In this document: positions 5,872-28,839 of the stretch, in pieces
Layout of the letters: each line of letters opens with the position of its first letter
Numbering within the stretch: the stretch's first letter is position 1
Origin: Lachnospiraceae bacterium
GTDB lineage: Bacteria > Bacillota > Clostridia > Lachnospirales > Lachnospiraceae
Assembly: GCA_017550535.1 (NCBI GenBank)
Contig: JAFZOS010000029.1
Coordinates: 1 to 32,913 of the forward strand
DNA length: 32,913 nt
Direction: 5' to 3'
The notes under the pieces: generated by a model
What the model saw: the letters and a program-made list of their open reading frames with translations, nothing else
Databases searched by the model: none
Told to the model about the DNA's origin: nothing
Translations under genes and position numbers: made by a program

Positions 5872-6084
5872 ATGTTAACATTATTGATGATGATCATGTT
5901 TTTTGCAGTATTTGGAAGGTTGTTAGGATTTGCATTAAGAGTAGGCTGGGGCATGTTTAAGATAGCTGCATACCTTATATTCCTTCCGGCCATAGTACTT
6001 ATGATGATATTCGGAGGACTTATCTATGTAGCACTGCCCATACTTATAATAGCCGGCATTGTTGGGCTGGCAGTAAGAGCGTAG
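5872..6084 (+). CDS. 70-residue two-helix membrane protein
   Basis: This is a small hydrophobic protein with two or three membrane segments: residues 1-14 (LLMMIMFFAVFG), 27-48 (IAAYLIFLPAIVLMMIFGG) and 50-68 (IYVALPILIIAGIVGLAV), with a short RVGWGMFK linker. The ribosome binding site AAGGAGG is excellent, 8 bases from the ATG. From memory, small proteins of this style are widespread in Clostridia and are often found beside envelope-stress genes, but I cannot name a family. It is followed by a 26-codon ORF and the 138-residue gene, with their ribosome binding sites packed into the 100-base gap, so these form a likely operon. Confidence 0.75.
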   Translation: MLTLLMMIMFFAVFGRLLGFALRVGWGMFKIAAYLIFLPAIVLMMIFGGLIYVALPILIIAGIVGLAVRA

Positions 6085-6095
6085 GAGGAACGGAT

Positions 6096-6176
6096 ATGAC
6101 GAAGTCATATTCAGCATTCGTTCCGACGATTGGCCGCCGACGGAGGAGGGAGCATTACATATTATATGAGAGGTAA
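6096..6176 (+). CDS. Possible 26-residue basic peptide ORF
   Basis: ATG at 6096 is preceded by GGAGG at 6084-6088, with 7 bases spacing, overlapping the stop of the membrane protein. The peptide begins MTKSYSAFVPTIG and contains five consecutive Arg before REHYILYER. The region also forms nested inverted repeats (GGAACG...CGTTCC around ATATGAC-GAA-GTCATAT, about 6087-6123), so it may instead be an RNA structure between two cistrons. There is no family match, and coding status is uncertain. Confidence 0.3.
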   Translation: MTKSYSAFVPTIGRRRRREHYILYER

Positions 6177-18094: not shown

Positions 18095-19030
18095 ATGGAT
18101 CTTGATGACTTTGCCAAAACACACAATGTAGAAGTTGCCGAACAGTGCATAAACACTGACGACATTAAGGCAGTAGAGCAGAATATCCGCAGGTCCCTTA
18201 TAGGACTGCTTGGGGATATCCTGACAACAGAAGAGATAGTAAAGAAGAAAGAGGAGCTTCAGATCGCCTTTGGACCGAATCTTCGGCAGTACCTGCAAAA
18301 TTACGGGTATCTTAAGTACGGTGAAGTAAGCTTCTACGGCATGAGCAAAGGAGATCCGCTAAGCTCAAGTCTGGTCACGCAGACCAAGTACTTCAATAAG
18401 AATTTCCCGGCGACCTGGGGGAAGTTCGTAATTGAGGACCGCGGCGGGAGTTATGCCCTTGTCGCACCGGATGACGAAGTGTATCTGTTCGAGACAACGC
18501 AGGAAGAGCCGGAAGACCTTACAGATACAGGAATGAAGCTTAACCGGTACATGTTGGATCGATTGTCCTCCGCCCATGGCGACAGCCTTTATAAGGATGG
18601 AGAAGTCGAGACTTATGAAGTGGCATGGGAAGCATTCGAACGGGATCTTAAAAACCATAACCTGCCTGACTTTGGACAGCCGTCCGTAAAAGAAGTGATG
18701 GCCAAGAAGAAGGAAAAGTCATCCCTCTACAGCAAAAAAGAGCTGCAGAATCATATAAATCTACCATCCCGTAAGATGATCACGGAAGAATGCTCAAGGA
18801 TGCTTGATGCAAATAACGGCATTCCGGCAGAGATCGATATATGGGTGGAAAAATGCATTGCGTATTATTTCCCGCACGGGGCCATACTTAATGATTCCAG
18901 GATGGTAACAAAGACCGGTGATTCGTCCACATATTATCTGGATCCCAAAAAGGTTCTAAAGCCCCTGTACAAATACAGGGGATACACCTGGTACACATGG
19001 AAAGAGATCTATGCATATATCATCTATTAA
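18095..19030 (+). CDS. Uncharacterised protein, possible SMI1/KNR4 (SUKH)-like domain
   Basis: This is a 311-residue soluble protein. The N-terminal ~150 residues resemble the SUKH fold: an acidic helix, then FGPNLRQYLQNYGYLKYGEV, then FYGMSKGDPLSSSLVTQTKY and YALVAPDDEVYLFETT. SUKH domains occur in yeast Smi1 and, in bacteria, mainly in immunity proteins of contact-dependent toxins. No toxin gene is adjacent. The C-terminal 100 residues (after a Lys-rich linker KKKEKSS) are unassigned and end in Trp/Tyr-rich sequence. The ATG at 18095 is 7 bases after GGAGG; the in-frame ATG at 18089 is too close. The family call is tentative. Confidence 0.5.
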   Translation: MDLDDFAKTHNVEVAEQCINTDDIKAVEQNIRRSLIGLLGDILTTEEIVKKKEELQIAFGPNLRQYLQNYGYLKYGEVSFYGMSKGDPLSSSLVTQTKYFNKNFPATWGKFVIEDRGGSYALVAPDDEVYLFETTQEEPEDLTDTGMKLNRYMLDRLSSAHGDSLYKDGEVETYEVAWEAFERDLKNHNLPDFGQPSVKEVMAKKKEKSSLYSKKELQNHINLPSRKMITEECSRMLDANNGIPAEIDIWVEKCIAYYFPHGAILNDSRMVTKTGDSSTYYLDPKKVLKPLYKYRGYTWYTWKEIYAYIIY

Positions 19031-19056
19031 CAAGCCATGGGGGGAAGTGGTATAAT
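19027..19056 (+). promoter_or_regulatory. Putative promoter of the receptor operon
   Basis: TTAACA (19027-19032), an 18-base spacer and a consensus TATAAT (19051-19056) lie 32 bases before the receptor start. The -35 overlaps the stop of the preceding gene. Confidence 0.5.
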
Positions 19057-19088
19057 TAACCCGGATGGTACAGGAGGACCCGGAGCAT

Positions 19089-22000
19089 ATGGAGAAATGG
19101 AAGACCAGGAAGATAATTCTGTTTATTACATTATGTGTGTGTCTCAATGTGGGCGGTAAGTTTATTGCCGTGTGGCTTGAACTTCCGCTGTGGGCCGATT
19201 CGTTCGGTACTGCGCTGTGCGCCTATATAGGGGGACCCTTTTGCGGCGCGCTGGTCGGATTGACCGGAAACCTTTCTTATTGTGTTATCAACCGCCTTTC
19301 GGCAGTATATTCCATAACAAATGTAGCTCTTGGCATTATAATAGGCATCGCGGCCAGAAACAGGTGGCTTGACCGTTTCTACGGTTTCATGAAGACCGCT
19401 TCCTGGGCGATGCTTACAGGTCTTATCGTATCAGTACCCATTGACATCATATTTGATAAGGGTTTTACCGGAAATAAATGGGGCAATGCGGTTGTTGATT
19501 ATCTGCTTGACAAGGAATGGCCTTCCTTTGTCTGTACCCTGATGGGCCAGACAGCTATCGAGTTTGCCGATAAGGTGCTCACGATCGCTGCAGTATATCT
19601 TGTCATCCTCTTCAGGCGCTGGAACAGGGAGCGCAGGAAAGAGAATGAGATGCGCATGGGCAATACCGGAACCGCAGCCATGATAATCCTTCTGTCATTT
19701 AGCCTTGGCCTTGGCATGTCTTCTACCGTAAGGGCCGCTTCAAATATTCAGGATGAATCCGTCGATTACAACGATTACGTACAGAGCGTTTACAGCAGCA
19801 ATAACGGACTGCCCTGCGGTGAATCCAATGATATAGCCCAGACCAATGACGGAGTTTTATGGATAGGAACCTATGCAGGCCTTTATCGTTATAACGGCCG
19901 TGAATTCCGCTGGGTCGATAATTACGAATCAGTCAAGAACGTTAACTGTCTTTATGTTGATGAAGAAGGCCGTTTGTGGATAGGTACAAACGACAACGGC
20001 CTGTCCATAGCGATCCGGGAGAAGGTCATAAATGTAATCGATCATTCAAGCGGTCTTCCTTCCAATTCCGTAAGGTGCATCATACGTGCGGCCGACGGTT
20101 ATTACTATGTCGGCACCACCGACAGCATGCAGATCCTCCAGATGAACAACGGTCTTGTACCGTCCAATACATTGGAAGAAGTGAATTATGCCGACAGCAT
20201 TACTGCCGACGATAAGGGCAATGTTGCAACGATAGCTTCAAACGGCAAGCTTTTTCTTATGAAGGGCGGTCAGATCCTGTCGGTACATGAGCTGCCGGAT
20301 AAGGAAGAGATATATAAATGCTGTGCCTTTGCTCCGGACGGAACCCTGATGGTGGGAACTTCGGTCAACCATATCTATTGCTATGAGGTTGCCGGCGGCG
20401 ACATTACTGAGACCAAGGTAATAACCTGTGAGGAAGTAAACTGCATCAACAACCTTAATTACATAAGCAACGGTACCCTGTTCATATCAACGGACAGCGG
20501 TGTGTCCTATATAGACAAGGCAGGATATCATAAGCTCAATACCAATGAATTCAACAATTCTATCGACAACATGCTGTATGACTATCAGGGAAACCTGTGG
20601 TTCACATCTTCAAGGCTGGGTCTTTTAAGGCTGGCAAAGTCACCCTTTAAGGATGTATACGGGGCGATAGGAATGGAACGAAAGGTCGTAAATGCCATCG
20701 TTGCATGGAATAACTGTTACTATATCGGTACCGATACGGGGCTGGATGTGGTTGACAGGGCCTGCCGCAAGGAGATAGACAATGACCTGACGGAGGAACT
20801 TGAGGGTAAGCGTATCCGGTGCATGTATGTGGATGATAATGACCACCTGTGGGTATGTACTTACGGCAGCGGTCTTATAGAGTATGCTTCCGGCGGGGAG
20901 AAATGGATCTACAACGCGGACAGCGGAAGCTTCGGAAACCGTGCCCGTATAGTGACGGGTCTTTCGGACGGTACGATCATTGCAGCCGGTGATACGGGAA
21001 TAAGCTATATAAAGGATCATAAGATCACAAATACCATCCAGAATGAGGAGGGATATATCAATTCGATGATCTTAACGATCACCGAGAGGAACGACGGTAC
21101 GATCCTTGCGGGTACCGACGGCGACGGGTTGGCCGTAATAAAGGACGGTAAAGTAGAAAAAATGCTTAACAGGGAAGACGGACTGAGCAGCGGTGTTATC
21201 CTGCGTACGGTTAAGGATCCCAAGTCCGAGGGAGTCTTCGTCGTTACCAGTAACAGCTTATGCTACCTTGAGCCGGACGGTTTGATCCGAACCCTGGAGA
21301 AGTTCCCGTATTTTAACAATTATGATATCTGGATCAAGGATGAGGATACGCTTTTTGTCATGTCCAGTGCCGGTATATACGTTGTGGAGCGTGATGAACT
21401 TGTGGAAGACGGCGAGATATACTGGGAGCTGCTGGATGCAAGAAGGGGCCTTGGAACATCGCTTACCGCCAATTCATGGAATTACTATAACGGCAGGGGA
21501 GAACTCTTCCTTCCCTGTGATACGGGTGTTTATATAATCGATGTTGAAAAATATGACAGCGATGTCCGCTCTTACAGGATGCAGCTTGCTTCGGTAAGGC
21601 TTGACGGAGTGTTACAGCCCCTTGCCCGCAAGGAGGCTATAACGGTCGGACAGGGTGTGAACCGTGTGGAGCTGGGACCTGAGATCTTAAACTATACGAT
21701 CCAGGAACCCAATGTAGGTTACTATCTTGAGGGATTTGACACCCAGTGGACGACGGTTCCTCAGAATAACCTTAATAACATCATATACGTCAACCTCCCG
21801 GCAGGTAATTATACCTTCCACCTGGCCATCTTCGACAGCGCCGGTGAAAGCGTGCTGGAGGAGCGTACCTTTGAGATCGTAAAGGAAGGCGAGCTCTATG
21901 AGAAGCCCTTCTTCCAGGTGTATATGCTGCTTCTCTTATCCCTTATGCTTATCTGGTTTACCTGGCTGGTTGTACAGAGACAGCTTAACCAGCAGCAGAT

Positions 22001-22835
22001 CAAGCTGAATATGGCCAATGAGACGGTAACGGCTATCGCGAACGCCGTCGATGCCAAGGATGTACGTACCCATCAGCATTCCGTGCGCGTGGGTGAGTAT
22101 TCGGCCCTTATAGCACAGGAGATGGGGTGCTTCAAGGGCTTGCGTAAGAAGAAGGATTTAAACAGCTTAAAGAGGGCGGCCCAGCTGCATGATATCGGCA
22201 AGATAGGTGTTCCGGACAGCGTGCTTAACAAGGTCGGAAGGCTGACCGATGAAGAATACGTGCAGATGAAGTCACATGTTGAGAGGGGTTCCGACATACT
22301 TAAGGACTTCACATTGGTGGAGAATGTAACCGACGGAACAAGGTACCATCATGAGCGCTACGACGGACGCGGGTATCCTGATGGCTTAAAGGGCGAGGAG
22401 ATCCCTCTTTTCGGCCGTATCATAGGTGTTGCCGATGCATTCGATGCGATGACAAGTAACCGTGTTTACCGCAACCACATGGATACCGATTATGTAATAA
22501 ACGAAATGAAGCGGGGAAGGGGTACGCAGTTTGACCCCAATGTACTTGACGCATTCTTCCGCCTTATCGATAAGGGCATAATCAATCCGGATAAGATCTA
22601 CGCCCAGAAGAGCGAGGAGATCAAACAGGCCGGCCAGGATGCCCAGGATGAACTTGCCCGCCGTGTCGAGGAGGACAAGAGGATCCAGGCGGCACAGATG
22701 AAGGAAGATAAGGAAGAAAAAAAGGAAGAGGATAAGAAGGAAGCCGGAGAAGAAGTAAAGGAAGAGGATAAGAAAGAAGCCGGAGATGAAATAAAGGAAG
22801 AAAATAAGGAAGAAGAGAAGGGGGACGAGGCATGA
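19089..22835 (+). CDS. Multidomain HD-GYP receptor with ECF-S-like and beta-propeller domains
   Basis: This is a 1,248-residue transmembrane c-di-GMP phosphodiesterase. The order is: a five-to-six-helix membrane domain (about 5-190) resembling ECF-transporter S components (LPLWADSFGTALCAYIGGPF); a further helix (about 193-215); an extracellular propeller of repeats such as NDGVLWIGTYAGLYRYNG (about 225-840); a Y_Y_Y domain (about 855-930); a helix (about 942-963); HD-GYP (about 977-1160); and a Lys/Glu tail with 36-base repeats. Active-site motifs are intact: HQHSVRVGEYS, LHDIGKIGVP, HHERYDGRGYP and VADAFDAMTSNR. The propeller and Y_Y_Y domains are as in hybrid two-component sugar sensors. 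The ATG at 19089 is 10 bases after AGGAGG; ATG 19065 lies before it. It overlaps the next gene by 4 bases. Confidence 0.88.
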   Translation: MEKWKTRKIILFITLCVCLNVGGKFIAVWLELPLWADSFGTALCAYIGGPFCGALVGLTGNLSYCVINRLSAVYSITNVALGIIIGIAARNRWLDRFYGFMKTASWAMLTGLIVSVPIDIIFDKGFTGNKWGNAVVDYLLDKEWPSFVCTLMGQTAIEFADKVLTIAAVYLVILFRRWNRERRKENEMRMGNTGTAAMIILLSFSLGLGMSSTVRAASNIQDESVDYNDYVQSVYSSNNGLPCGESNDIAQTNDGVLWIGTYAGLYRYNGREFRWVDNYESVKNVNCLYVDEEGRLWIGTNDNGLSIAIREKVINVIDHSSGLPSNSVRCIIRAADGYYYVGTTDSMQILQMNNGLVPSNTLEEVNYADSITADDKGNVATIASNGKLFLMKGGQILSVHELPDKEEIYKCCAFAPDGTLMVGTSVNHIYCYEVAGGDITETKVITCEEVNCINNLNYISNGTLFISTDSGVSYIDKAGYHKLNTNEFNNSIDNMLYDYQGNLWFTSSRLGLLRLAKSPFKDVYGAIGMERKVVNAIVAWNNCYYIGTDTGLDVVDRACRKEIDNDLTEELEGKRIRCMYVDDNDHLWVCTYGSGLIEYASGGEKWIYNADSGSFGNRARIVTGLSDGTIIAAGDTGISYIKDHKITNTIQNEEGYINSMILTITERNDGTILAGTDGDGLAVIKDGKVEKMLNREDGLSSGVILRTVKDPKSEGVFVVTSNSLCYLEPDGLIRTLEKFPYFNNYDIWIKDEDTLFVMSSAGIYVVERDELVEDGEIYWELLDARRGLGTSLTANSWNYYNGRGELFLPCDTGVYIIDVEKYDSDVRSYRMQLASVRLDGVLQPLARKEAITVGQGVNRVELGPEILNYTIQEPNVGYYLEGFDTQWTTVPQNNLNNIIYVNLPAGNYTFHLAIFDSAGESVLEERTFEIVKEGELYEKPFFQVYMLLLLSLMLIWFTWLVVQRQLNQQQIKLNMANETVTAIANAVDAKDVRTHQHSVRVGEYSALIAQEMGCFKGLRKKKDLNSLKRAAQLHDIGKIGVPDSVLNKVGRLTDEEYVQMKSHVERGSDILKDFTLVENVTDGTRYHHERYDGRGYPDGLKGEEIPLFGRIIGVADAFDAMTSNRVYRNHMDTDYVINEMKRGRGTQFDPNVLDAFFRLIDKGIINPDKIYAQKSEEIKQAGQDAQDELARRVEEDKRIQAAQMKEDKEEKKEEDKKEAGEEVKEEDKKEAGDEIKEENKEEEKGDEA
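22725..22796 (+). repeat. 36-base tandem repeat in the receptor tail
   Basis: Two adjacent near-identical 36-base units (22725-22760 and 22761-22796) encode EEDKKEAGEEVK and EEDKKEAGDEIK, and a third, decayed unit follows. The length is a multiple of three, so copy-number change keeps the frame. Confidence 0.8.
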
Positions 22836-24034
22836 AGCGAATATATATAACAACCCTGGTAACCTGTCTTGTCATACTGGGTACCCTGATCTGCTGTTTC
22901 AGGCTTCTTAACCTGTCAGGGGGTAAGGATCACCTGACGGTCGGCTTTATCTATGACAATGATGACAGCACACCGTATACCTATAACTTCTCGCTTGCCA
23001 AGGATGCGGTTGAGAAAAAGTACGGAGATAAGGTGGATATCCTTACGTGCAGCAACGTACTGGATGATGGGATGGAAGCACCCTTAAGGGAACTGGCCGA
23101 TAAGGGCTGCGACATCATATTCTTTAACGGTTACAGTGATCTGGTAATAAAGCTGGCTCCGGAATATCCGGATATACAGTTCTGCCAGACATCATATATG
23201 GACATGTACGGCAAGACGGTACCGCCCAATTACCATACCTTTAAGGGTGAGGCTTATCAGGGCCGCTACGTGAGCGGGATCGCAGCCGGTGTTAAGATAA
23301 GGCAGATGCTGCTTGAAGGGATCATTTCGGAAGACGAAGCCGTTGTGGGTTTCGTTGCCGCCTTCCCGACATCGGAGGTCATTTCGGGTTATACGGCCTT
23401 CCTGCAGGGAGTCCGTTCGGTGGTGTCGGAGGCTAAGATGCGTGTCTGCTATACCTATACCTGGAGCAGTTACGCCCTTGAAAAGAACAGCGCCCATAAG
23501 CTCATAGATGAAGGCTGCGTTGTGATATCCCAGCATACAGATACCATAGGTCCGGCCATTGCCTGTGAGGAAGCATCGGGAGAGAAGAGAGAAAAGCCCG
23601 TTTATTATGTAGGTTATAACCAGAGCATGTCCGAGGTTGCCCCGGGCACATCGCTTGTTACGTCAAGGATATGCTGGGAGCCCTATGTGCTCTCGGCTGT
23701 TGATGCAGTCATGAGCGACAGGGAGATTGAGAAGGTCGTTACAGGACGTATCCACGGAACCGATGTATCAGCCGGATTCGATAAGGGATGGGTGGAGATG
23801 GTCGACCTTAACCTGTTGGTAGCGGCACCGGGTACCGAAGAAGCCATGAATGATGCAATAGAGAAGTTCAAGCACGGCAGCGGTGATTTCGTGTTCAAGA
23901 GTAATCATACAGGAGTTGATATCCTTGATTCCTCAAACACCATAGACTTAAGGAACGGATATTCTGAGAATGCCAATACATCCTATCCTTTATTCCACTA
24001 TATCATGCCGGACATCATCACAATAGATGATTGA
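22832..24034 (+). CDS. BMP/PnrA-family substrate-binding protein, membrane-anchored
   Basis: This is a 400-residue periplasmic-binding-protein fold of the basic membrane protein (BMP/PnrA) family, which in characterised cases binds purine nucleosides for ABC import. One N-terminal hydrophobic helix (about 4-26) has no clear lipobox. The mature domain starts LTVGFIYDNDDSTPYTYNFS. Then follow DIIFFNGYSDLVIKLAPEYP, GEAYQGRYVSGIAAG (family hallmark), VGFVAAFPTSEVISGYTAF, GCVVISQHTDTIGPAIA and the C-terminal strand FDKGWVEMVDLNLL. It overlaps the HD-GYP receptor by 4 bases (ATGA) and is followed 21 bases later by a GGDEF-EAL gene. No ABC permease or ATPase is present. I infer that it presents a ligand to the receptor. 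Confidence 0.85.
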   Translation: MKRIYITTLVTCLVILGTLICCFRLLNLSGGKDHLTVGFIYDNDDSTPYTYNFSLAKDAVEKKYGDKVDILTCSNVLDDGMEAPLRELADKGCDIIFFNGYSDLVIKLAPEYPDIQFCQTSYMDMYGKTVPPNYHTFKGEAYQGRYVSGIAAGVKIRQMLLEGIISEDEAVVGFVAAFPTSEVISGYTAFLQGVRSVVSEAKMRVCYTYTWSSYALEKNSAHKLIDEGCVVISQHTDTIGPAIACEEASGEKREKPVYYVGYNQSMSEVAPGTSLVTSRICWEPYVLSAVDAVMSDREIEKVVTGRIHGTDVSAGFDKGWVEMVDLNLLVAAPGTEEAMNDAIEKFKHGSGDFVFKSNHTGVDILDSSNTIDLRNGYSENANTSYPLFHYIMPDIITIDD

Positions 24035-24055
24035 ACTTGAAGGAAAGGAGTAGGC

Positions 24056-26293
24056 GTGGATTTTCAGAGCATAGTTGATTCTTTATATTCTCCTTCATGT
24101 ATAGTATCTATCGACAGAATTCCTGACGGCAGGTATGAAAACATACGTATTGCAGCAGGAAACAGGAAGTATGCGGATGTACTGGGCTTGCGAATGAACC
24201 CGGACGCATCGGACAAGGCCATGGATGCGGATGGCAACCTGGTCCCGGGATTACCTTATACGGATTATTTTCAACAGACTCAGAATTTCGAAGACCTGAT
24301 CGTAAATGCTGCGATACAGAAAAAGGAAGTACACACATATGCGCACATCTATAATGTCGATGTGTGGTTTGATATCTATGCCATACCGATCGACCATGAA
24401 GAGGGGAATACCTGTTACTGTCTGTATCTTGCTGTACCCAATGACAATGCGGATGCCCTTTTTGATACCTTCAGCTCATCCAAGACATCGGAGGATGTCC
24501 TTAAGACCTGCATAAAGCTTCATAAGGCAAATAACCTGCAGGAAGCAATGGAAGGTGTCATTGCCGAGATCCGTCTTATATGCAAGGCTGAGGGCTGTAC
24601 GGTCCTTCTTTTAAACCATGAGGAAGAGGATTTTTCCATACTCGCCACCAACTTCGTCCCAAACAGTACGATAAAGAGGGTCACGGAATTTGAGGGCTAT
24701 TATGACGTGGCGAATTCCTGGAAGGATATGCTGGGTGAAGAGGGTGACTGCATAATCATCAGAAACGATGAAGAAATGGAAAACATGAGCAGGATAAACT
24801 ATCCCTGGTATAAGACCCTGGTCGAAGCAGGCGTTAAGAGCGTTGTACTCTTTCCCTTACGTCAGGGCAATGAACTGCTCGGTTTTATCTGGGCCGTTAA
24901 CTTCGATACCGAGAACGCGCAGCGCATCAGGGAAATACTTGAACTGACGACTTTTTTCGTTTCTTCTCATATAGCACGTTATAAGGTAATAAGGCGTCTT
25001 AAGTACTTAAGCTACACGGATGCCCTTACAGGTCTGCCCAACCGCTTTGCATTAACGGAGTACATATCGGAGCTTATAAAAAAGAGAGAGAAGTTTGCGG
25101 CGGTATCGATTGATTTTAATGATTTCAAGCATGTAAACAATACTCTGGGTTTTGATGCCGGAAACAAGGTCCTTATAAACGTGACCGGGCGGTGGAAGGC
25201 GGTATCGAACAATATATTCCCGGATATGAAGAAGTATCTTACCTGCATAGGAGGAGATGAATTCTTCCTTGTGATCAGCGGATACGAAAACGATGAGGAC
25301 TTAAGGAAGGCAGTTGACTCTTATAACGATGCCCTTACCGATAACCTTACGGTTGACGGCTGCGATCTGTATGTATCGGCCAGCTTCGGATATGCCGAGT
25401 ATCCGATGGATGCCGATACGACGGATACGATCATTTCTTTTGCAAATGCTGCGATGAATGATATAAAAAAGACCAACAGCAGCGAACATGTCTTAAAGTT
25501 CACGCCTGAGCTTTTAAGGGATGAGCATATACTTGAGATCGAGAGACTTATAAGGAATGCTCTTGATAATGATGCTATATATTTCAACCTGCAGCCCCAG
25601 TACGATATGGATCACAAGCTTCGCGGCTTTGAGGCCCTTGCCCGCATGAAGGATGAGGATGGCAATGAAGTAAGTCCCGAAGAGTTTATACCTGTTGCGG
25701 AGAAGGTCGGGCTTATAGACAGGGTAGACGGATCGGTTGCCAGGAAGGCTGCCATGTTTTTCGGCGGTCTTTTGCGTGAAACGGGAGCCAAGCTCAGCCT
25801 TTCCTTAAATGCTTCGGTCCGCCATATGATGAAGAGCGATTTTATAGATGAGATGAGAAGTCTCCTTAAGGACAGCGGCATACCCGCAGACCAGCTTGAG
25901 ATAGAGATAACGGAATCCATCATGATAGATTCCGTTGATAAGGCCCTGCGCTGTATTGACGAACTCAGGAGCATGGGCATCCAGATAGCCATCGATGATT
26001 TCGGTACGGGTTATTCCTCATTAAGTTACCTTAACAGGTTCCCTGCAAACCTTCTTAAGGTCGATAAATCCTTCATCGATGTAATGAATTCGAGTGACTC
26101 TTCCAGGCAGTATGTTGCCGCCATCATTTCAATGGGGCATGTCATGGGATTCGACGTTATATCCGAGGGTGTTGAGGAACCCGAGCAGCTTGAGACCTTA
26201 AAGGAGATCGGGTGTGACTATGTACAGGGCTTTATCTGGGGACGTCCCTTATCGGAGGAAGATGCGCACAGGCTCATAACCGGGCTGAAATAA
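24056..26293 (+). CDS. GAF-GGDEF-EAL bifunctional c-di-GMP protein
   Basis: This is a 745-residue soluble protein. The N-terminal ~130 residues look PAS-like (SPSCIVSIDRIPDGRYENIR). A GAF-like domain covers about 155-300. GGDEF (about 318-480) begins LSYTDALTGLPNRFAL and has an intact CIGGDEFF active site, with no RxxD inhibitory site visible. EAL (about 495-742) is complete: GFEALARM, the Asn of LSLNASVRH, EIEITESIMID, IAIDDFGTGYSS, LLKVDKSFID, ISEGVEEPEQ and CDYVQGFIWGRP. It could both make and degrade c-di-GMP, with the GAF/PAS domains choosing the balance. The start is GTG at 24056 with AAAGGAG upstream. Probably the third gene of the receptor operon. Confidence 0.9.
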   Translation: MDFQSIVDSLYSPSCIVSIDRIPDGRYENIRIAAGNRKYADVLGLRMNPDASDKAMDADGNLVPGLPYTDYFQQTQNFEDLIVNAAIQKKEVHTYAHIYNVDVWFDIYAIPIDHEEGNTCYCLYLAVPNDNADALFDTFSSSKTSEDVLKTCIKLHKANNLQEAMEGVIAEIRLICKAEGCTVLLLNHEEEDFSILATNFVPNSTIKRVTEFEGYYDVANSWKDMLGEEGDCIIIRNDEEMENMSRINYPWYKTLVEAGVKSVVLFPLRQGNELLGFIWAVNFDTENAQRIREILELTTFFVSSHIARYKVIRRLKYLSYTDALTGLPNRFALTEYISELIKKREKFAAVSIDFNDFKHVNNTLGFDAGNKVLINVTGRWKAVSNNIFPDMKKYLTCIGGDEFFLVISGYENDEDLRKAVDSYNDALTDNLTVDGCDLYVSASFGYAEYPMDADTTDTIISFANAAMNDIKKTNSSEHVLKFTPELLRDEHILEIERLIRNALDNDAIYFNLQPQYDMDHKLRGFEALARMKDEDGNEVSPEEFIPVAEKVGLIDRVDGSVARKAAMFFGGLLRETGAKLSLSLNASVRHMMKSDFIDEMRSLLKDSGIPADQLEIEITESIMIDSVDKALRCIDELRSMGIQIAIDDFGTGYSSLSYLNRFPANLLKVDKSFIDVMNSSDSSRQYVAAIISMGHVMGFDVISEGVEEPEQLETLKEIGCDYVQGFIWGRPLSEEDAHRLITGLK

Positions 26294-27720: not shown

Positions 27721-28839
27721 ATGAGGAAAAAAGCTGTTGTAGCCGGACATATATGCATCGATATAACACCCGGGATAACCAGGCAGGCATCGGATAAGAT
27801 ACAGGATGTACTGATGCCGGGCCGGCTTATAAATGTCGGGGAAGCCGACATCCATACCGGAGGAGCGGTCGCGAATACTGGTCTTGCAATGAAGATCCTG
27901 GGAGCCGATGTTTCCCTTGTGGGGAAGCTTGGTGATGATGACTTTGCAGATATGGTTATCTCCGTTACGGACAGGTATGATGCTTCGGATGGGCTTATAA
28001 GGAGTGAGGGTGATTCTACCTCTTATTCCGTCGTGCTGGCCATCCCCGGTATAGACAGGATATTCCTTCATAATCCGGGAGCCAACGATACTTTTTGTGC
28101 GGATGACCTGCCGATGGATAGGATAAGGGAAGCCGCCCTTTTTCATTTCGGATATCCGCCCCTCATGAAGAGGATATATGAAAATGACGGCCGGGAGCTT
28201 GTCAGGATAATGAGGGAAGTAAAGGAGGCAGGAGCAGCGACAAGCCTTGATATGGCGGCTGTCGATCCGGATACGGAAGCCGGAAGGGCCGACTGGAAGG
28301 GTATACTTGCAAGGGTCCTGCCCTATGTGGATATATTTGTTCCAAGCATTGAGGAGCTTCTCTTTATGCTTGACAGGGATAAGTATGACAGGTTAAGGAC
28401 TTATGATCCGGCTGCTGACTTAACCGGCATGATAAGCCTTGAGGATATAGAGCCCCTGGGACGTAAGTGTCTTGATATGGGTGCGAAGATAGTTATGATC
28501 AAGTGCGGTGCACCGGGAATTTATTACTGTACCGGAAGTGAAGAGAAGCTTGAAAATATAAGCGGGAGGCTGTCGCTTAATACATCGGTATGGGCTGATA
28601 AGAAGGGCTTTGAGAGAAGCTATAAGCCCGAGAAGATAGTCTCTGCAACAGGAGCCGGAGATACGAGCGTTGCCGCATTCCTGACTTCTGTATTAAACGG
28701 TTCTGCGCCGGAGGAGAGCGTAAGATATGCGGCTGCCACCGGAGCATGCTGTGTAGGAGCTTATGATGCCCTTAGCGGTTTAAAGAGCCTTGATAAGCTT
28801 GATGAAATGATTAATGCAGGCTGGGAGAAGATACAGTAA
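27721..28839 (+). CDS. PfkB-family carbohydrate or nucleoside kinase
   Basis: This is a 372-residue ribokinase-fold enzyme that phosphorylates a sugar or nucleoside. The N-terminus has AVVAGHICIDITPG. Substrate-binding GEADIHTGGAVANTGLA (GG motif) and LVGKLGDDDFAD follow. The C-terminal PfkB signature is IVSATGAGDTSVAAFLTSVL, with the anion hole and catalytic Asp intact. FVPSIEELLFML is the second PfkB hallmark. The protein is longer than ribokinase (about 300) owing to inserts near 215-290. The substrate cannot be read from sequence. Its location after a nucleoside-type binding protein gene makes a nucleoside substrate worth testing. It converges on hflX, with 9 bases between stops. Confidence 0.85.
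   Translation: MRKKAVVAGHICIDITPGITRQASDKIQDVLMPGRLINVGEADIHTGGAVANTGLAMKILGADVSLVGKLGDDDFADMVISVTDRYDASDGLIRSEGDSTSYSVVLAIPGIDRIFLHNPGANDTFCADDLPMDRIREAALFHFGYPPLMKRIYENDGRELVRIMREVKEAGAATSLDMAAVDPDTEAGRADWKGILARVLPYVDIFVPSIEELLFMLDRDKYDRLRTYDPAADLTGMISLEDIEPLGRKCLDMGAKIVMIKCGAPGIYYCTGSEEKLENISGRLSLNTSVWADKKGFERSYKPEKIVSATGAGDTSVAAFLTSVLNGSAPEESVRYAAATGACCVGAYDALSGLKSLDKLDEMINAGWEKIQ

Follow-up and report, generated by a model that had tools for sequence, protein, structure and literature searches.

Proteins of the family PF02608 (BMP) are mostly substrate-binding proteins of ATP-binding cassette (ABC) transporters. What does such a protein do beside a receptor that is predicted to hydrolyse cyclic di-GMP (c-di-GMP)? 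The question is raised by a contig of 32,913 nucleotides (nt) in the 2.74-Mb genome of a Lachnospiraceae bacterium (contig C46; "the window" denotes this whole stretch), where a BMP gene directly follows the gene for an HD-GYP receptor and no ABC ATPase or permease gene lies directly beside the pair. We propose, with a probability of roughly 70%, that receptor (19089-22835) and BMP protein (22832-24034) act together as a single purine-responsive sensing complex controlling the HD-GYP domain. The two proteins and their parts are as follows:

19089..22835, + strand: receptor with an S-component-like membrane domain, Reg_prop propeller, Y_Y_Y domain, membrane helix and HD-GYP domain (Pfam, motifs, NF045596)
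19092..19634, + strand: energy-coupling factor (ECF) S-component-like membrane domain, residues 10-190 of the open reading frame that begins at 19065
19755..21944, + strand: predicted extracellular Reg_prop propeller and Y_Y_Y domain, residues 231-960 (Pfam; limits from homology)
21903..21980, + strand: predicted membrane helix linking Y_Y_Y and HD-GYP, residues 947-972 (hydropathy scan)
21990..22589, + strand: HD-GYP phosphodiesterase domain, residues 976-1175 (HD_5, 6.6e-37; motif residues)
22832..24034, + strand: BMP-family binding protein, predicted to be membrane-anchored (PF02608, 5.3e-23; nearest folds AtzT and 3s99)
22835..22906, + strand: predicted N-terminal membrane anchor of the BMP protein, residues 2-25, without a lipobox

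Searching 99 relatives, we obtained close relatives of the BMP gene, and a scan of a named genome collection supplied 80 loci, the best of 177. The pooled non-redundant set comprised 92 BMP genes, three of them at a contig edge, leaving 89 that were testable upstream. Records of the named collection carry the names Lachnospiraceae and Butyrivibrio, besides a small number of others from the Clostridia, and many are metagenome-assembled genomes from the rumen. The receptor gene lay directly upstream of the BMP gene in 89/89 of these loci, with the exact 4-nt overlap of the two genes in 79, while the surroundings varied widely: the gene 5′ of the receptor belonged to 54 families in 68 testable loci (no family in more than 7), and the gene 3′ of the BMP gene to 72 families in 86 testable loci (largest family, 3). 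Because every locus was paired while the flanking genes were shuffled, the pairing of receptor and BMP exceeds chance. Queries derived from L070 found no ABC permease match near the pair in 106 loci, and ABC ATPase-like matches occurred in a few loci (L062, L161, L165, L167 and L227), each time without permease matches. The preliminary description of this locus, made from the window alone, had remarked on the missing importer and had proposed looking for conserved BMP genes next to HD-GYP receptors without ABC genes; the genome search returned just that, with neighbours that were not random.

The pair also held over greater distances. Upon surveying 397 genomes from the family (with thresholds of E 1e-70 for the BMP protein and E 1e-190 for the receptor), we found the BMP protein in 31 genomes (32 matches) and the receptor in 35. 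In 20 of these BMP loci, 17 at 45-51% identity and three at 68-76% (one of these three, L228, being the same contig as L153), the receptor was upstream in all 20, in L211 as judged by coordinates, such that the pair persists to ~45% identity in other genera. One genome (G404) is paired in locus L215 though its receptor is absent from the survey's match list, two others (G038 and G044) are likewise paired, and in seven of the remaining survey genomes the BMP and receptor matches are adjacent by coordinates; in G186 they lie at the ends of separate contigs, so that adjacency cannot be read there. No BMP gene without the receptor was found where the contig allows the check. We regard the pairing as a well supported functional link, not yet a physical one.

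The third gene of the window, a GGDEF-EAL gene, had been counted as a member of the same module. We examined this in an adjacency table of 101 rows (80 named loci, 24 further loci with genome handles, a paralogous pair on contig C12 and the window, minus L058, L161, L165, L167 and L209, whose BMP reading frames had not been picked up; 14 loci are present in both collections), and this type of GGDEF-EAL gene occurred 3′ of the BMP gene only in the window. In L144 and L166, some other GGDEF-domain gene lies 3′ of the BMP gene on the same strand, and at the C12 paralogue a GGDEF-EAL homologue is located directly upstream of the receptor instead. Judged by gene order, the conserved unit thus consists of two genes, receptor and BMP, and not of three, and the three-gene module was rejected as such a unit.

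Is the receptor a plausible enzyme? Its Pfam scan returned Reg_prop (2.1e-26), Y_Y_Y (8e-9) and HD_5 (6.6e-37), and the HD, HHE and G-x-GY residues are kept in 96/96 aligned receptors (95 of them different), with the P of GYP kept in 84/96. The receptor is therefore predicted to be an HD-GYP phosphodiesterase that would hydrolyse c-di-GMP. Its N-terminus matches NF045596 (ECF S-component) at E 7.1e-15, with bits below the equivalog cut-off; comparison of the domain sequence with PDB chains returned nothing at E 10, and only the fold search placed the domain, with an S-component match above the unrelated rows. Within the Pfam scan, no dCache family was found at E 0.1 and 5TMR_LYT was not reported. 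In L167 and L207 the receptor reading frame is apparently broken.

The BMP protein itself (PF02608, 81.9 bits versus a gathering score of 24.1) does not look like an importer lipoprotein, as it carries a predicted N-terminal membrane anchor and no full lipobox. Among the 110 non-redundant BMPs linked to HD-GYP receptors, 109 have a readable N-terminus (L065 is cut there), and a full lipobox was present in 0/109, compared to 22/22 of the ABC-linked BMPs. This count is based on a pattern allowing Cys at -2, which matches all 22 ABC-linked BMPs; a narrower first pattern matched 16/22 of these, and likewise none of the 109. Of the marks of a PnrA-type importer lipoprotein, both the lipobox cysteine and the ABC ATPase and permeases in the operon are lacking. 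In a tree, the HD-GYP-linked BMPs formed one clade (support 100/100) beside 12 ABC-linked BMPs, with kinase-linked BMPs placed elsewhere. Signalling partners of BMPs were hence probably acquired more than once, the rooting of the tree being uncertain. The anchored BMP and the S-component-like N-terminus of the receptor are predicted features that the preliminary description had not contained.

Which ligand might such a protein present? The closest solved sequences are 3s99 (2.9e-24) and AtzT (5.5e-20), and an AlphaFold2 model of the BMP protein (mean predicted local distance difference test score, pLDDT, 74.8) placed the same two at the top of the fold ranking. According to the AtzT report, guanine is sandwiched there by Tyr45 and Trp194 and bonded by Glu165, Asn218, Asn220, Ser97 and the Phe98 backbone, with dissociation constants of 0.11 μM for guanine and 2.5 μM for adenine, and adenine was modelled in the 3s99 structure (PMC6834077). 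Y49, E182, W211 and D237 of the BMP protein align with Y45, E165, W194 and N220 of AtzT, and all four are kept in 110/110 HD-GYP-linked BMPs; H235 takes the place of N218 and is H in 100/110. In the alignment, 3s99 also shows H and D at the N218 and N220 positions. By closest fold and sequence, aromatic sandwich and pocket glutamate, the protein belongs with the AtzT/3s99 type. The ABC-linked sister BMPs have E, W, H and D in 22/22 and Y in 18/22, and the ten genes found near some of them include three xanthine phosphoribosyltransferases, a guanine deaminase, a dihydropyrimidinase and a YgeW carbamoyltransferase, next to a threonine ammonia-lyase, FtsY, a permease and another binding protein. 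The genome has four BMP genes, and two of the others (L001 and L002) lack the Y/E/W/D set. Given the kinship with AtzT and 3s99, the kept pocket residues, the purine genes of the sisters and the absence of the set from L001 and L002, our best guess for the ligand is a purine base or something closely related to one. The nucleoside that had been suggested at the outset is disfavoured, since the pocket points to purine bases.

Taken together, we suggest the following mechanism. With its own N-terminal helix, the BMP protein would be tethered to the outside of the membrane, and it would bind a purine base (adenine- or guanine-like) in the cleft between its lobes. Once closed, it would dock on the extracellular part of the receptor, either on the propeller/Y_Y_Y region or on the outer face of the S-component-like domain, and docking would raise or lower the activity of the cytoplasmic HD-GYP phosphodiesterase and, with it, alter the local c-di-GMP level. 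The GGDEF-EAL neighbour would be an optional local addition. Physical contact, ligand, c-di-GMP hydrolysis and membrane topology are the parts of this scheme that we infer.

Several observations weigh against this reading. A close BMP orthologue was found in only 23 of the 37 genomes searched from the organism's own genus, several of them incomplete, and the receptor is one of many, as the genome carries 16 HD_5 domains. A looser lipobox pattern, which ignores the residue after the Cys, matched 21/110 HD-GYP-linked BMPs, that of the window not among them; because the matches are only 21 and their Cys is always followed by F, L or M, this Cys is neither conserved nor lipobox-like. BMPs beside MCP and SpoIIE-type genes keep the lipobox, so a missing lipobox does not mark signalling BMPs in general. 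In the pocket, the S97/F98 loop through which AtzT contacts guanine is a two-residue gap, and N218 and N220 are replaced by H235 and D237, owing to which the exact ligand may differ from that of AtzT. Furthermore, five of the 35 receptor genomes (G045, G405, G321, G138 and G168) have no such BMP beside the receptor: neither G045 nor G405 has any PF02608 match, and the other three have unrelated PF02608 proteins elsewhere. In the receptor tree, G045, G405 and G321 form a single clade nested within the paired group (98/91), indicating one loss of the BMP gene, while G138 and G168 fall outside the paired group, among receptors of other output. It follows that the receptor must be able to work or sense alone, and the BMP protein depends on the receptor, not the reverse. 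The earlier notion of a BMP protein dedicated to this receptor, and not to an importer, is upheld by the invariant pairing and the missing importer genes, with the amendment that some genomes carry the receptor and not this BMP gene.

A further point against is that the correlations between BMP distances and receptor-domain distances did not single out the propeller: among close pairs the BMP distance correlated best with the propeller (0.36), and among distant pairs with Y_Y_Y (0.49) and the S-component domain (0.45). This last result favours an alternative in which the S-component-like membrane domain of the receptor has the purine- or BMP-related role, as do the S-component fold of the N-terminal domain and the small vitamins that S-components bind according to the titles of the matched entries. 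We consider this alternative unlikely, as the S-component domain is the least conserved of the domains (mean distance 0.76, versus 0.51 for the propeller and 0.33 for HD-GYP) and is also fused to HD-GYP in proteins without propeller or neighbouring BMP (L064, L129 and L231).

Alternatively, the BMP protein might be the orphan subunit of an importer, serving an ABC transporter elsewhere in the genome, with its position behind the receptor reflecting mere co-regulation. This would suit the usual role of PF02608 proteins as ABC substrate-binding proteins, and the genome does hold 11 BPD_transp_2 permease matches. However, the genome's only BMP-linked ABC importer has a BMP of its own: of L001 and L002, one neighbours a phosphorylase-superfamily gene, and the other, which shares its operon with genes for an ABC ATPase and two permeases, is a lipoprotein by its lipobox and has a pocket of another type. 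A clear ABC partner of the window BMP elsewhere in the genome, which the preliminary description had named as capable of refuting its own reading, did not emerge. The membrane anchor, the lack of a full lipobox in all 109 readable N-termini, the receptor pairing kept across many genera and the absence of permease matches from the 106 loci argue in the same direction, making an orphan subunit very improbable. Least probable of all is a BMP protein that serves the receptor as a structural or inhibitory subunit independently of any ligand, a role which membrane anchoring and fixed co-expression would suit, but for which the four pocket residues kept in 110/110 proteins would be needless.

NspS-MbaA and CuaD-CuaS-CuaR offer precedents for a sensing complex of receptor and BMP protein, CuaD belonging to a binding-protein family other than BMP. 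NspS-MbaA of Vibrio cholerae, where a periplasmic binding protein responds to a small extracellular molecule and thereby governs a c-di-GMP enzyme of the membrane, as is proposed here, shows that a binding protein can set such an enzyme; the ligands of NspS are polyamines, and MbaA is of the GGDEF-EAL type (PMC8967002). The window pair shares with it a binding-protein gene beside a membrane c-di-GMP enzyme without importer genes, and differs in the BMP family, the HD-GYP output, the propeller, the S-component-like domain, the predicted anchor of the binding protein and its occurrence in Lachnospiraceae. In Ruminiclostridium cellulolyticum, a member of the Clostridia that uses a second binding protein for sensing, the CuaD gene lies beside its sensor and the protein binds to that sensor, separately from the importer's own binding protein, whereas the signal there is cellobiose and the output a two-component system (PMC10384115). 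AtzT and 3s99, unlike the window BMP, are not membrane-anchored next to a receptor, and the window BMP lacks the S97/F98 loop of AtzT (PMC6834077). An S-component fold also serves as the membrane domain of signalling proteins in 5TMR_LYT kinases and related receptors, for which the source names GGDEF and EAL partners and neither HD-GYP nor a propeller (PMC11109136). Lastly, dCache_1PU domains allow extracellular purines to modulate c-di-GMP turnover by direct binding (PMC11245519), whereas here a separate protein would supply the pocket and no dCache is reported in the receptor. Literature judged by title and abstract start, with subscription journals mostly outside its coverage, held no description of a BMP-HD-GYP pair, and CD3073 was not mentioned among the matches listed. 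What seems new is the combination of an anchored BMP, a purine-base pocket, a propeller, an S-component-like domain and an HD-GYP output.

Side observations extend to other BMPs and other receptors. In L088, L089, L098, L100, L101 and L102, lipobox-less BMP genes, sometimes two in tandem, directly precede hybrid histidine kinases; a full lipobox was present in 0/9 BMPs beside such kinases. Three of these kinases are HisKA-HATPase-REC proteins by Pfam, two with Hpt, without ABC matches beside them, and BMP with hybrid histidine kinase may constitute another BMP signalling pair. A BMP gene also lies beside a sCache_3_3-HAMP-MCPsignal chemoreceptor (L087:6848-9758) and beside a 4HB/HAMP/SpoIIE protein (L086:8138-10992). 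L090, L091, L092, L093 and L094 encode proteins of 645-665 residues with a C-terminal Bmp domain (by Pfam in L090 and L091) and no signal peptide evident by eye, which are perhaps cytoplasmic BMP-domain proteins. On the receptor side, the proteins joining the S-component-like domain to HD-GYP without a propeller are located at L064:271-2523, L129:8313-10469 and L231:6303-8507, and L113 and L114 encode S-component-propeller proteins with kinase-like ends. Propeller-HD-GYP proteins without the S-component-like domain repeatedly adjoin a gene of 478 codons (L118, L119, L120, L121, L123, L124 and L125); the one scanned, in L119, is a DcuC-type carrier, perhaps pointing to a transporter-linked c-di-GMP sensor. 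Ten scanned neighbour genes of other propeller receptors included no binding-protein family, one DcuC carrier and one unmatched gene.

The remaining features of the window concern expression and neighbours:

19027..19056, + strand: promoter-like site TTAACA-18-TATAAT with TG before the -10, just 5′ of the receptor start (11/12 matches, best of 17 in the scan)
24056..26293, + strand: GAF(weak)-GGDEF-EAL protein, outside the conserved two-gene unit (Pfam)

The scan total of 17 promoter-like sites equals the shuffled mean (17.8), with no excess over shuffles. The receptor reading frame spans 19065-22835, and the start at 19089 fits better than that at 19065 because of GGAGGA 10 bases 5′ of its start codon and a Met that is invariant across 42 aligned sequences. 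Sequences resembling ribosome-binding sites precede both the BMP gene and the GGDEF-EAL gene, the latter beginning with GTG and possibly co-transcribed with the pair. The spacings of -4 (receptor-BMP) and +21 (BMP-GGDEF-EAL), the three genes and their motifs had been described correctly, as reading frames, Pfam and motif residues agree; in the third protein, GGDEF (7.1e-25) and EAL (3.5e-64) were borne out, and GAF stayed just below the Pfam cut-off (20.2 versus 22.4 bits). Each of the genome's two copies of the pair has a PfkB-family kinase downstream of it (window 27721-28839; L005:14682-15803), which is not the BMP-adjacent gene in the relatives' rows. A GA-cis RNA (RF02987, 58.5 bits) is found at 6080-6163.

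Overall, our data suggest that the BMP protein and its receptor constitute an outside-to-inside sensing device in Lachnospiraceae of the rumen and gut. More tentatively, at somewhat less than even odds, the complex may combine components of two importers that are not related to each other, namely an ABC binding protein for purine bases in which a helix replaced the lipid anchor and an ECF S-component-like domain, joined by a propeller to HD-GYP, such that extracellular purine bases would set c-di-GMP in these bacteria. Recruitment of BMP binding proteins into signalling seems to have happened more than once, as their histidine kinase, chemoreceptor and SpoIIE-type neighbours illustrate. For many c-di-GMP enzymes the stimuli are unknown, and for a lineage of the rumen and gut the fixed pair offers a receptor together with a class of ligands that can be tested. 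If the proposal is true, extracellular purines would be tied to c-di-GMP through a separate binding protein, and parts of importers would have become receptors.

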